A stretch of 21,176 nt of DNA from a virus. Where the stretch lies: IMG/VR virus record IMGVR_UViG_3300034101_002656, positions 1 through 21,176 of that record; one strand, given 5' to 3'. The notes under the pieces are model-generated. The model ran no database searches and had not been told where the DNA came from. It saw nothing but the letters and a program-made list of their open reading frames with translations. The position numbers and the translations under genes were made by a program. Position 1 is the stretch's first letter. The number at the start of each line of letters is the position of its first letter. Below, piece by piece: positions 15,577 through 18,515 of the stretch.

Positions 15577-16353
15577 ATGGCTAAGTCACCCGGCTTCTGG
15601 TTCTTCACTGGCGACTGGATGAAAGATCCAGAGCTCAGGTTTTGCTCGCTTTTTGCTAGAGGTTTGCTTGTCGATTTGCTTTGCATCTTGTTTGAAGCAA
15701 ACGAGCAGGGATACGCAAGCAACCCTGACGGCTCGGCCCGAACCGACGAGCAGATCGTGGATGCCGTTTCTGGCGGCGGGCGCGATGAAAAACTCGCCGC
15801 GCTGGCCGAATTGGAGAAAAGTGGCGTTCTTTCCCGCGATTCTCGCGGTGTTTTGTTCAGTCGCCGCATTTCCCGGCTGGCCGAACTGAGCGAAACCCGC
15901 AAGCAAAACGGAAGCAAAGGGGGTAGCAAAACTCAAGCAAAGCCCAAGCAAACCGACAAGCAAAACAGGGGGGTTTCGGTTTCGGTTTCGGATTCTGTTT
16001 CGGATTCGTTCTTAAAAGAAACACACACACACACAGGCCCAGGCGGCTCTCGCGAGGACGGCTGGGCAGAAGACGAGTGGCAACGCTTCCTCGCCAAGTG
16101 GAACGCCACCGAGAGGGCCGCCCGCTGGCCCGGCTTCATGGCACCGGATGGCTGGGTTCAGAACGCCAGTTACCCGTCGTGGCTGGAGAAGGCCCATCAC
16201 GCGATGGATCGCCTGCCCCGCTGCGAGTTCTTCGACCAGCCGCTCGCCGTCACTCGGTTCTTTGAGTACGTCGATCGCATCTTGGCCGGTGAGTTTGACA
16301 ACGCGAAGAAAGATCGAGTCAGGACACGTCAACCAGTAGGAGGGAACCTGTGA
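15577..16353 (+). CDS. Replication initiator, lambda O-like organisation
   Basis: 258 residues, ATG 15577 after AAAGGA (15564-15569). Residues 1-107 are a compact domain (FWFFTGDWMKDPELRF, LFARGLLVDLLCILFEANE, IVDAVSGGG, LAALAELEKSGVLSRD, GVLFSRRISR) resembling the winged-helix N-terminal domain of phage replication initiators. Residues 108-153 are a Lys/Gln/Ser-rich linker whose DNA carries repeated words (candidate origin). Residues 155-258 form a helical C-terminal domain (WQRFLAKWNATERAARWPGF) probably for helicase-loader contact. Composition changes from A+T-richer to G+C-rich at about 16036. The next gene overlaps by four bases and could be the loader. Confidence 0.75.
   Translation: MAKSPGFWFFTGDWMKDPELRFCSLFARGLLVDLLCILFEANEQGYASNPDGSARTDEQIVDAVSGGGRDEKLAALAELEKSGVLSRDSRGVLFSRRISRLAELSETRKQNGSKGGSKTQAKPKQTDKQNRGVSVSVSDSVSDSFLKETHTHTGPGGSREDGWAEDEWQRFLAKWNATERAARWPGFMAPDGWVQNASYPSWLEKAHHAMDRLPRCEFFDQPLAVTRFFEYVDRILAGEFDNAKKDRVRTRQPVGGNL
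15901..16035. other. Candidate replication origin inside the initiator gene
   Basis: Six copies of (A/T)AGCAAA start at 15901, 15912, 15924, 15935, 15946 and 15958, spaced 11-12-11-11-12 bases, about one helical turn. They fall in all three codon phases, so the repeat is kept at DNA level. Six tandem hexamers follow (15974-16009: TTTCGG three times, ATTCTG, TTTCGG, ATTCGT), then TTCTTAAAAGAA (16009-16020) and (AC)7 (16021-16034), a likely easily melted tract. Layout equals lambda ori within O: iterons then A+T-rich DNA. Confidence 0.75.
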
Positions 16354-16859
16354 GAACCTGGGAAGACAACAAGACCGCCATCAACCAACTCTGGCCGATG
16401 GTGCAGTTCACGGAGGAGGAGAAGCGTCTCTGGCGCGAAGACCTCAGCAACCTCGACCAGGACGTGCTCTACGACGCGATCCGCAACGTGAAGCGCGGGC
16501 ACGACACGCTTTACCCGCAGTTGAAGTGGATGCTCGACGGCTACCGCGAGTTGTTCTCGCTTAAGCGTCGGGCGCTCCGGCAGACCGGCGAGAAGCACAA
16601 GAAGCTCGACCTAAACATCTCGGCCGACGAGGACAAGAGGCTGGCCAGCGACTTCATCGCCGTGATCGACGCCGCATCGCCCGACCAATACGAGTCCATC
16701 GAAAACATGGTGCTCGACAAGCTGCCCCGCATGCACGCTGCCACGGCCCTACGGGTCTTGATGTACGCGAAGAAGCGACTGCTCGGACAAGAAGCCCTCT
16801 TCGGGCGAGTGACCGCAGACGGAGACATCTCACCCATTTCTTTTGGAGCCATCAAATGA
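16350..16859 (+). CDS. Putative helicase loader / replication accessory protein
   Basis: 169 residues, GTG 16350 overlapping the initiator stop (GTGA), with AGGAGGGAA just upstream. N-terminal 70 residues read WEDNKTAINQLWPMVQFT, EEKRLWREDLSNLDQDVLYD and LYPQLKWMLDGYREL, like the small helical N-terminal domain of G39P-type phage helicase loaders, which place a short helical bundle ahead of a flexible tail. Residues 90-150 are another helical stretch ending RVLMYAKKRLLGQEAL. Position after an O-like initiator is that of lambda P. Assignment is by synteny and pattern. Confidence 0.55.
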   Translation: MRTWEDNKTAINQLWPMVQFTEEEKRLWREDLSNLDQDVLYDAIRNVKRGHDTLYPQLKWMLDGYRELFSLKRRALRQTGEKHKKLDLNISADEDKRLASDFIAVIDAASPDQYESIENMVLDKLPRMHAATALRVLMYAKKRLLGQEALFGRVTADGDISPISFGAIK

Positions 16860-17110
16860 CCGAAACAGCAACCGCCACCGCCACCGAACGCCCCCAGCTG
16901 ACCGACCGCCAGCGTGAAGTCTTTGAGTACATCACCGACTTCCGCGACCGCAACGGCTACTGCGTGGCCATTGACGACATCGCCAACCACTTCGGGATTC
17001 ACAAGAACGCCGTGGTGAATCACGTCTGGTCTCTGCGCCGCAAGGGCTGGGTGCAGTGGCAGCCCGGCCAGGCCCGCACCCTTCGCCCGGTGGAGGTGGC
17101 CAATGGCTGA
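16856..17110 (+). CDS. Stand-alone LexA-type DNA-binding domain
   Basis: 84 residues, ATG 16856 overlapping the upstream stop. After a Thr/Ala-rich leader, residues 15-78 align by eye to the LexA N-terminal winged helix: LTDRQREVFEYITDFRDRNG, then IANHFGIHKNAVVNHVWSLR, RKGWVQ and GQARTLRPVE, with conserved LT-RQ-EVF, IA, RKG and R-R positions. The protein stops where LexA would continue into the cleavage site and Ser/Lys protease domain, so it cannot self-cleave. It may regulate early genes or compete at host SOS boxes; the target is not known. Confidence 0.8.
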   Translation: MTETATATATERPQLTDRQREVFEYITDFRDRNGYCVAIDDIANHFGIHKNAVVNHVWSLRRKGWVQWQPGQARTLRPVEVANG

Positions 17111-17297: not shown

Positions 17298-17575
17298 CGC
17301 TCTCCGATCTTGTCCTTGTCTCGGCAGGAATCGCGGCCAACGCGGCCACGTTCTGCTTGGGCATTTTGGTTGGTTGCTCTTTAACTCGAAAGGATTCCCA
17401 TGACCGCAACAGCAACGAAGCCACGGAAGGCTCAGTCTCGCGCCAGTGGCATCTCCCTCCCCATAGCAACGCTCCGTGCCGCCCTGGCTGCGGTTCGGGC
17501 CGCTGTTCCAAGCCGAAGCCCGAAGCCGATCCTGTTGAACGTTTTGCTGGCCAACGGCGGGATCACGGCGAGTGA
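17294..17575 (+). CDS. Small predicted membrane protein overlapping the clamp gene
   Basis: 93 residues from ATG 17294, which overlaps the preceding stop (ATGA). Residues 5-28 form one clear hydrophobic span (LVLVSAGIAANAATFCLGIL). The first 35 codons lie in otherwise free sequence before the clamp start at 17400; the last 58 codons run through the clamp gene in another frame and look like low-complexity shadow (Cys, Pro, Arg). The start context and hydrophobic span suggest a real small membrane protein, but the C-terminal part is doubtful. Confidence 0.4.
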   Translation: MTLSDLVLVSAGIAANAATFCLGILVGCSLTRKDSHDRNSNEATEGSVSRQWHLPPHSNAPCRPGCGSGRCSKPKPEADPVERFAGQRRDHGE

Positions 17576-18515
17576 TCTGGAACTCCAGGTGTCGGCCGAG
17601 GTGCCGTACACCGACGCTCCGCTGTTGCTCCCGTTCGCCCGCTTGCAGGCGATCCTCGGGGCCGCCTCGGGCGACGAGGTGACGCTGGCCCCAGGCGACA
17701 CGTCTTGCATCGTGAGCGTGGGCGGCGGCACTTGGACGCTGCCCACGGAGGATGCGGCGGAGTTCCCCCGGTGGGAAACTCCCACCGTGAAGCCGATCTG
17801 CCGCATCCCGGCCGACCAGTTCGTGCGGGCCGTGAAGGCGGTGGCCTACGCCACGGACACCGATTCGAGCCGGTTCGCCCTCGGGGCGGTGCTCGTCGAG
17901 GTGAAGGATGGCACGGTGACGCTGGTGGGCACGGACGGGCGGCGGCTCTCGTCCTACGGGATCGAGGTGGACCAGGCCGTGGACGACTCCACGACGCTGA
18001 TCCCGGCGCGGGCGATCCTGACCATCAGCAGCATCGCCTCGCACAGCGAGGGGGCGGTGCAGTTGGAGGCCACCGACCGCGAGGTGGTGGCGACCATCGA
18101 CGGCACGGTGGTGACGGCCCGGCTCGTCGAGGGACGCTTCCCCAGGTGGCGTGACGTGATCCCCGAGCGGGACGCGAAGGCCACGCTCGTGAACGGGGCC
18201 GAGCTGCTGGCGGCGACGCGGCAGGCGGCCATCGTGACGAGTGAGCAGTCGAAGGGTGTGACGTTCGCGTTCGTCGAGAACGGCATCCACCTGACCGCTC
18301 AGAGCGCCGAGGCGGGGCAGTCGAGCGTGACGTGCGGTCTGCTGGAAGCGGGCCAGACGGCGAGCGTGGCGCTCGACCCCGGCTTCGTGGTCGAGTTCCT
18401 GCGGGGCGTGGACGAGGCCGAGCCCGTCGAGGTCGAGGCGGTGGACGCCCAGAGTGCCGTGGTCTTCCGGTGCGGCGACTGCACCGGCGTTGTCATGCCG
18501 TTGGCGAAGGACTGA
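17400..18515 (+). CDS. dnaN: DNA polymerase III beta subunit (sliding clamp)
   Basis: 371 residues, ATG 17400 with AAAGGA a few bases upstream; close to the bacterial clamp length of about 366. Three repeated clamp domains can be traced. Domain 1 contains KPILLNVLLANGGITASDLE, YTDAPLLLPFARLQAIL and TEDAAEFPRWE; domain 2 VAYATDTDSSRFALGAVLVE, VGTDGRRLS and LIPARAILTI; domain 3 ATLVNGAELLAATRQAAIVT and the end GVVMPLAKD, close to the MPMRL-type clamp terminus. It forms a dimeric ring that tethers polymerase to DNA. Its place in a phage replication operon after initiator and loader means the phage brings its own processivity factor for the host polymerase or for a phage one outside the window. 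Confidence 0.93.
   Translation: MTATATKPRKAQSRASGISLPIATLRAALAAVRAAVPSRSPKPILLNVLLANGGITASDLELQVSAEVPYTDAPLLLPFARLQAILGAASGDEVTLAPGDTSCIVSVGGGTWTLPTEDAAEFPRWETPTVKPICRIPADQFVRAVKAVAYATDTDSSRFALGAVLVEVKDGTVTLVGTDGRRLSSYGIEVDQAVDDSTTLIPARAILTISSIASHSEGAVQLEATDREVVATIDGTVVTARLVEGRFPRWRDVIPERDAKATLVNGAELLAATRQAAIVTSEQSKGVTFAFVENGIHLTAQSAEAGQSSVTCGLLEAGQTASVALDPGFVVEFLRGVDEAEPVEVEAVDAQSAVVFRCGDCTGVVMPLAKD

Follow-up and report, generated by a model that had tools for sequence, protein, structure and literature searches.

A candidate tailed-phage replication origin within the gene for its own initiator

Can one stretch of DNA carry both the recipe for a replication protein and the place where replication starts? 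We know of no mapped origin for most phages known only from metagenomes, and the question was raised here by a gene in a 21,176-nt stretch of viral DNA (IMG/VR record IMGVR_UViG_3300034101_002656, positions 1 to 21,176; the whole stretch is called the window below). A first-pass annotation had proposed that this gene encodes an initiator which binds iterons in its own linker-coding DNA, and that the site is a candidate phage origin. This proposal is well supported by the sequence comparisons described here. We consider it likely that the locus is a tailed-phage replication origin contained in the gene for its own initiator, one piece of DNA apparently encoding a protein and marking the start point of replication. 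The coordinates of the features are collected in Table 1.

The gene product is probably a replication initiator. In profile searches the one named family matched was PHROG 13246 (replisome organizer), with a weak score (E 6.8e-4, residues 29-124), and no family was found in NCBIfam or, at E up to 1, in Pfam, where the Phage_rep_O (lambda O family), RepA_N and DUF1376 profiles were among those giving no match. The AlphaFold2 model, built with 27 sequences, consisted of a winged-helix N-domain, a probably disordered linker (residues 113-160) and a helical C-domain. In structure comparison of the N-domain, the initiator entries 4pql, 4pt7, 5kbj and 4pta, which we take to be RepA of pSK1/pSK41, reached Z 5.6-6.6, tied with FIC, LexA and CRP rows; since the initiator entries tie with other winged helices and a FIC protein, the comparison supports the fold only. 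The initiator role assumed in the first-pass annotation is supported by the weak PHROG match, the winged-helix model, the low-confidence linker and a DnaB gene adjoining the initiator gene in a related clade.

Table 1. Features of the initiator-like gene and its surroundings (window coordinates, except for the last row)
Feature	Position	Strand	Basis or remark
Initiator-like gene, 258 aa	15577..16353	+	ORF; PHROG 13246; 21 IMG/VR relatives
Winged-helix N-domain (residues 8-110)	15598..15906	+	AlphaFold2 model, mostly pLDDT 80-97
Array 1, four AGCAAA words, inverted relative to array 2	15641..15680	-	starts 15641, 15652, 15663, 15675
Array 2, six (A/T)AGCAAA iterons	15901..15964	+	steps 11, 12, 11, 11, 12
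Linker (residues 113-160)	15913..16056	+	AlphaFold2 pLDDT under 50
G-run between iterons and hexamers	15968..15973	+	also in inspected relatives down to 62% N-domain identity
Six GWTTCK hexamers	15973..16008	+	sequence; recoding null; codon bias
Candidate unwinding tract	15986..16035		lowest stability of any 50 bp in gene, z 3.05; fifth in window
Helical C-domain (residues 161-243)	16057..16305	+	AlphaFold2 model
169-aa helical protein, possible partner	16350..16859	+	ORF; no Pfam, PHROG or NCBIfam family
DnaB-type replicative helicase gene	L038 3811-5094; L039 1409-2746; L045 3588-4886; L050 3852-5168		after initiator gene

The iterons of array 2 were found exactly as first described, as six (A/T)AGCAAA heptamers starting at 15901, 15912, 15924, 15935, 15946 and 15958 on the plus strand (AGCAAA cores at 15902, 15913, 15925, 15936, 15947 and 15959), and their codon phases, counted from 15577, were 0, 2, 2, 1, 0 and 0, which covers all three phases. 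When the gene was recoded synonymously (protein kept, codon usage of the window, 100,000 draws), the longest phased AGCAAA chain had four words, compared with six observed. The window holds 18 AGCAAA sites, ten of them in the two phased clusters of the initiator-like gene; the pair of words WAGCAAANNNNWAGCAAA occurs four times in the window, once within array 1 (15652-15669, minus strand), and was absent from 100 shuffles. In 21 genes of the clade with AGCAAA words, the 135 array-2 words were distributed over the codon phases as 64, 44 and 27, and neighbouring words were 11 bp apart in 60 cases and 12 bp apart in 54. The two free positions of the core were A and G in all 135 words (CAAA being fixed by the search pattern), the preceding base was A or T in 125, and the positions flanking the core carried 0.9 bit or less. 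The iteron, first described as a 7-base word, is thus better described as a conserved six-base core, AGCAAA, with the preference for A or T ahead of it retained. The iterons of lambda are 18 bp long, and none of that kind was seen in the initiator-like gene.

The earlier description was incomplete in one respect, as it missed a second, inverted array in the codons of the DNA-binding domain itself. Its four words follow one another at steps of 11, 11 and 12 bp, beginning 64 bp into the gene, within the codons for the conserved stretch FCSLFARGLLVDLL of the winged-helix domain; being inverted, it points away from array 2. At most three phased TTTGCT words were obtained in 100,000 synonymous recodings, compared with the four observed. 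Between the arrays, at 15834-15848, we also noticed an inverted repeat, CCGCGA-TTC-TCGCGG, which is mostly retained in near relatives and absent farther out.

Downstream of the iterons, six GWTTCK hexamers were counted where 0.62 were expected from synonymous recoding, and in the window they are followed by TTCTTAAAAGAA and (AC)7. The first-pass annotation had listed the hexamers, an A+T-rich inverted repeat (TTCTT-AA-AAGAA, at about 16010-16021) and the (AC)7 run (at about 16021-16034), and all three are present; however, unlike the iterons and hexamers, the inverted repeat and the (AC) run are not conserved in more distant relatives, and a C-run/G-run inverted repeat stands in their place in L021, L043, L053, L054 and the L038 group. 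We define the window family by N-domain identity of 62% or more, which includes 29 of the 33 genes compared. In this family the least stable 30 bp begins 16-39 bp past the last iteron in 24 of 29 genes (the exceptions being L014, L018, L019, L038 and L043) and the least stable 50 bp begins 8-22 bp past it in 22 of 29. At a length of 80 bp, the array-1 region of the window (15617-15696) is less stable than the tract after the iterons. The hexamers were also considered as DnaD 5'-TnnT-3' elements (PMC10201434); few TnnT were seen by eye and this assignment was set aside.

Protein searches of IMG/VR gave 21 relatives, and a query with the N-domain gave 42 loci, many on the same contigs, down to 31% identity. 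Array 2 is retained in all 29 window-family genes as a phased chain of 4 to 9 words, while spacers, copy number and codon phase vary; the expectation that a spacing of 11-12 bp would be kept while the codons vary was therefore borne out in the relatives. Array 1 is likewise retained in 29 of 29, with four words in 27 genes, five in L004 and three in L020, and it is absent from the four distant genes L056-L059. Homologues without linker repeats, named in the first-pass annotation as one observation that would count against it, were encountered only far out: L058 and L059 (31-32% N-domain identity) have no phased words, and chains of three and two words remain in L056 (39%) and L057 (33%). The array-2 chain was matched in at most one of 2,000 recodings for 27 of the 29 genes tested, the values for L056 and L057 being 0.005 and 0.017. 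The recoding statistics comprised 29 genes and the chain table 33; duplicates or near duplicates (L002, L003, L008, L044, L047-L049, L051, L052, L055 and the L025-L037 copies) and the 5'-truncated L022 were left out of both. Pam1 and Versailles, the closest phage relatives that bear a name (27-33% identity), showed no phased AGCAAA in the linker stretches inspected. The Pseudanabaena phage Pam1 relative, L023, has three CCTAATA words 12 bp apart in its linker (2870-2900), in frame.

A scan of synonymous diversity, carried out with no preset word, showed its clearest troughs over array 1 and over array 2 plus hexamers, with means of 0.115 for the array-1 codons, 0.151 for array 2 and 0.167 for the hexamers, compared with 0.331 over the remaining N-domain codons. 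When the linker (codons 106-145) was examined in 15 near relatives, Val was encoded by GTT in 50 of 51 cases, Asp by GAT in 39 of 43 and Gln by CAA in 63 of 67, whereas elsewhere in the gene (minus array 1) the same codons made up 38 of 131, 59 of 211 and 34 of 110 (Fisher p 8e-15 to 2e-19, with related sequences treated as independent). Three phased RRCAAA words were found only at arrays 1 and 2 in 14 of the 15 records searched at full length, and nowhere in the fifteenth (L057). On these comparisons, both arrays are to be regarded as DNA-level signals.

A natural change of the word was seen in the L038 clade. In the eight genes of this clade that were compared, array 2 has AACAAA in 32 of 42 words and AGCAAA in the others, with all steps of 11 bp. 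In array 1, all eight genes have TTTGTT, which is complementary to AACAAA, at copies 1 and 3, and copies 2 and 4 are still TTTGCT. The change is synonymous at copies 1 and 3, and at copy 2 it would alter Ala27; at copy 4 it could have been made synonymously with two base changes and was not. The joint shift is one evolutionary event, yet it is as would be expected if a single protein, itself changing, read both sets of sites. The clades (21 vs 4 genes) are separated by seven of the first 115 alignment columns, and these columns, among them 37, 70, 74 and 98, are candidates for the source of a change in specificity.

Genes near the initiator-like gene encode RecT, an exonuclease, HNH, a LexA-like DNA-binding domain and a DNA polymerase sliding clamp (Pfam, PHROG), the LexA-like protein being encoded at 16856-17110 (Pfam). 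The clamp, at 17400-18515, is a phage-encoded DNA polymerase III beta-type protein (Pfam DNA_pol3_beta domains, PHROG 947). In all four L038-clade loci that were read (L038, L039, L045 and L050), the gene directly downstream of the initiator gene encodes a helicase of the DnaB type (DnaB_C, with E values of 1e-48 or better to within a factor of three). In the window this place is taken by the 169-aa protein, the fold of which gave nothing informative. L019/L020 and L021/L022 have other C-domains, with N-domain and array 2 retained, and where the next gene was readable (L019, L021, L022) it was also different. Since L011 and L015 retain the window-type C-domain and lack the 169-aa neighbour, the putative partner and the C-domain do not always travel together. 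The downstream ORFs L007 4707-5774 and L011 4282-5421 start with a resemblance to a DNA cytosine methyltransferase and contain THTHTHT runs, so that these phages have another (AC)n-like stretch. A search of genome contigs gave no confirmed relative, so no host was found.

Phased words were then sought in IMG/VR by DNA alone, as three AGCAAA at 11-12 bp (set A), AGCAAA at 14-15 bp, and the reversed word AAACGA three times at 11-12 bp (set C). Each of the three scans returned at least 120 loci, and the fractions below describe the matches listed, not exhaustive rates. An initiator component was defined as a phmmer single-linkage cluster; of ten of its members taken at random (five per set), eight match a PHROG with a replication name, one matches only unnamed PHROGs common to others and one was unclear. 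The PHROG scans covered 97 of 109, 90 of 107 and 83 of 96 ORFs in the three sets, as ORFs over 600 aa, some short ones and those of the window family were left out. Among the matches listed for AGCAAA at 11-12 bp, 59 of 109 distinct ORFs fell into the initiator component; DUF1376 and DUF6291 were each found in 15 of the 97 ORFs scanned, and primosomal protein, replisome organizer and replication initiation were among the commonest PHROGs. At the control spacing of 14-15 bp, 3 of the 107 listed ORFs fell into the component, all three low-complexity by sequence with no initiator among them, and they were counted as 0 in the Fisher test; no replication name occurred among the commonest 25 of 65 PHROGs, and a single protein family with 15-bp repeats inflates the set, accounting for 30 of the 107 listed. 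The 59 listed component genes with AGCAAA have 122 steps of 11 and 35 of 12 bp, and since 11 is no multiple of three, their phasing is at the DNA level. The words lie on the strand of the gene in 58 of these 59; the remaining gene belongs to the window family, and its words are those of array 1. None of the 110 listed initiator-component genes outside the window family had a chain of its own word in inverted orientation.

The AAACGA scan was intended as a negative control and failed as such, as 53 of the 96 listed ORFs belonged to the initiator component and 48 of the 83 scanned matched one DnaD-like loader PHROG. Its words, too, are mostly 11 bp apart (108 of 142 listed steps) and on the strand of the gene (53 of 53 listed). 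Because AAACGA retrieves initiators too, the AGCAAA word itself is not what singles them out. These matches hint either that AAACGA is the iteron of another initiator family or that A-rich initiator linkers give such matches easily. AAACGA words at 11-12 bp were seen within many DnaD-like loader/initiator genes of set C and in L309, for which a protein search returned two loci only. Not every initiator has such an array: among the protein-selected relatives of L174, AGCAAA pairs at lag 11/12 were present in L428 and L429 and missing from the best listed words of L432 and L434-L439, L431 and L440 being short. A further locus, L130 (729-1499, minus strand), is an initiator-like gene that holds six phased AGCAAA words. 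The N-domain of its product matches DUF1376 weakly and its C-domain is, by eye, that of the window protein, suggesting modular exchange.

A second element was recognised outside the window family. A 6-bp-periodic tract lies within 110 bp past the last iteron, at a median distance of 9 bp, in 35 of the 57 listed AGCAAA-type genes, compared with 4 of 53 AAACGA-type genes and with 7 of 495 control pieces taken from other parts of the genes in the two sets (57 of the 59 set-A genes, the two window-family ones being removed, and 53 of 53 set-C genes were counted). Sequence identity was analysed by lag in 53 AGCAAA-type and 46 AAACGA-type genes, those with pieces under 60 bp being dropped. In the former it was 0.51, 0.50 and 0.43 at lags 6, 12 and 18, compared with 0.32-0.34 at lags 3, 9 and 15, and the tract had 63% A+T, compared with 54% upstream and 56% farther down. 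In the latter, lag 6 gave 0.43 and lags 3 and 9 were equally raised (0.45 and 0.48), so that no 6-bp unit stands out. The repeated word varies by gene (AATGTA, TCTGTA, CCATCA and GAAAAT are examples). Since 6 bp equal two codons, a dipeptide explanation may be an alternative for these tracts outside the window family; the hexamers of the window family are argued to be DNA-level because of their codon bias.

The cumulative GC skew, which had been suggested as a check, gave no support, as it did not mark the arrays in the window or in three longer relatives (G001, G002 and G003). Raw minima lay at the very start of all four sequences, which are linear records and may be fragments, and detrended minima were located 2.0 kb from the arrays in the window and 3.3, 11.0 and 22.5 kb from them in G002, G003 and G001, respectively.

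We weighed four other explanations of the arrays. The first takes them as operators, at which the protein itself or another phage repressor binds and shuts off or blocks transcription of the gene, with no origin function. Array 1, starting 64 bp into the gene, and the LexA-like protein encoded nearby (16856-17110) would suit such a role, but array 2 lies mid-gene, far from the start, and an origin accounts better for a weak tract that comes after iterons where initiator and helicase genes adjoin. We regard operators alone as unlikely; operator and origin functions may coexist. We think it very unlikely that the repeats arose at the protein level, as mere amino-acid or slippage repeats in a low-complexity K/Q/S/V linker. 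The linker is indeed predicted to be unstructured and the hexamers are read in frame as VS/DS dipeptides; however, the iteron words occur in three phases at 11-bp steps, their core is constant while the spacers vary, the recoding null and the biased codons speak against it, and array 1 is located within a structured domain. For the iterons, this explanation is largely refuted.

It is also conceivable that the two arrays, whose words are complementary by construction, pair within the mRNA, giving a long-range helix with a regulatory role. The mRNA segment 15636-15970 folds better than its shuffles (z -2.70; 1 of 100 shuffles was as good), but spacer pairing amounted to 42% over all registers, compared with 37% predicted by composition (51% when the best register was chosen for each gene), and in the L038 clade two of the four array-1 words no longer match AACAAA, which makes such a helix exceedingly improbable. 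Finally, partition, packaging or host-protein sites, which as a matter of general knowledge also use direct repeats of short words, can be given hardly any weight, as the arrays lie in an initiator-like gene in 29 of 29 window-family genes and phased words retrieved by DNA alone were mostly in initiator-like genes among the matches listed.

Returning to the reading as an origin within the initiator gene, we infer binding, melting, helicase loading, origin activity and a role of the inverted array along the following lines. The N-terminal winged-helix domain would bind AGCAAA iterons, about one per helical turn, at six sites on the plus strand in the linker DNA and at four inverted sites in the DNA coding for the domain itself. 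Assembly on the linker array, which adjoins the hexamers and the A+T tract, would open that tract, and the C-domain would bring the replicative helicase, either the DnaB encoded next door (in one clade) or the host DnaB through a partner. The inverted array may serve a second assembly for bidirectional loading, or looping. As the linker DNA is the origin in this scheme, the linker must tolerate many sequences.

A much wider proposal joins these observations, and we offer it tentatively, as a possibility that is rather doubtful as a whole. Phage initiators of many families may share a two-part origin code in their linkers, consisting of AGCAAA-type iterons once per turn, read as double-stranded DNA, and then a tract of 6-base period and free word, which would be read in steps of six bases once melted; in addition, the window family may have doubled its origin through the inverted array in the DNA-binding-domain codons, giving two divergent assembly sites, bidirectional helicase loading and sites that co-evolve with the domain they encode. 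Such a code could be likened to the logic of the DnaA-trio or DnaD elements. In B. subtilis, a single-strand motif beside the initiator sites has been proposed to steer helicase loading (PMC10201434).

If phased words in initiator linkers mark origins, these could be located from sequence, with no cultured phage. The odd low-complexity linkers of such initiators (KQ-rich, then SVSVSD, PSPSPS or NVNVND) would, if this is true, be translated origin DNA. The window family would be an unusual case of dual coding, with a DNA-binding domain encoded by DNA that it probably binds, and the natural change from AGCAAA to AACAAA in both arrays provides a ready-made test of recognition.

How does this locus compare with known systems? 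Our literature search (titles and abstract openings, with most subscription papers outside its scope) returned no paper on phage initiators that deals with AGCAAA or with short iterons in helical phase. Prior work reportedly includes lactococcal phage TP901-1 and a review by Weigel and Seitz. As far as the searches reach, the kind is known and the variant is new within the literature searched; we do not claim priority. The lambda precedent named in the first-pass annotation holds, but it is one of several, as SPP1 gene 38 and pSK41 rep are laid out in the same way. In lambdoid phages the origin lies in the middle of O, with iterons (4 or 6 in lambda-type origins) and an A+T tract, and extra iterons in Stx phages add 13 residues to the protein (PMC7466680). 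The window gene is similar in having iterons and an A+T tract mid-gene and in that extra words lengthen the protein; it differs from lambda in its 6-bp core per 11-12 bp, its hexamer tract and the inverted array in the N-domain codons.

In pSK41, the N-domain of Rep binds four boxes located centrally in rep, the segment encoded by the origin is a deletable linker, the C-domain contacts host replication proteins, and N-domain and origin have been swapped as a module in pPR9 (PMC5703833). The likeness to these RepA_N proteins lies in the predicted winged-helix N-domain and in iterons that are central in the gene and code for the linker, whereas the window protein has no RepA_N Pfam match and an inverted second array is not mentioned for pSK41 in section 14 of PMC5703833. 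The other initiators retrieved by the DNA scans (DUF1376, DUF6291, Lin1244-like and unnamed) likewise have words (AGCAAA or AAACGA) spaced by 11-12 bp, located mid-gene and on the strand of the gene, but have other N-domains and, among the matches listed, no inverted chain of the same word. In SPP1, oriL is part of gene 38 and comprises direct repeats and an unwinding element, gp38 being the replisome organizer; the phage also encodes a helicase loader and a helicase, and oriR lies about 13 kb from oriL (PMC6316719). The gene in the window resembles SPP1 gene 38 in that the repeats lie inside the gene of the putative initiator, beside a candidate A+T-rich unwinding element; it differs in that its second array is inverted and only about 220 bp from the first, both being in one gene.
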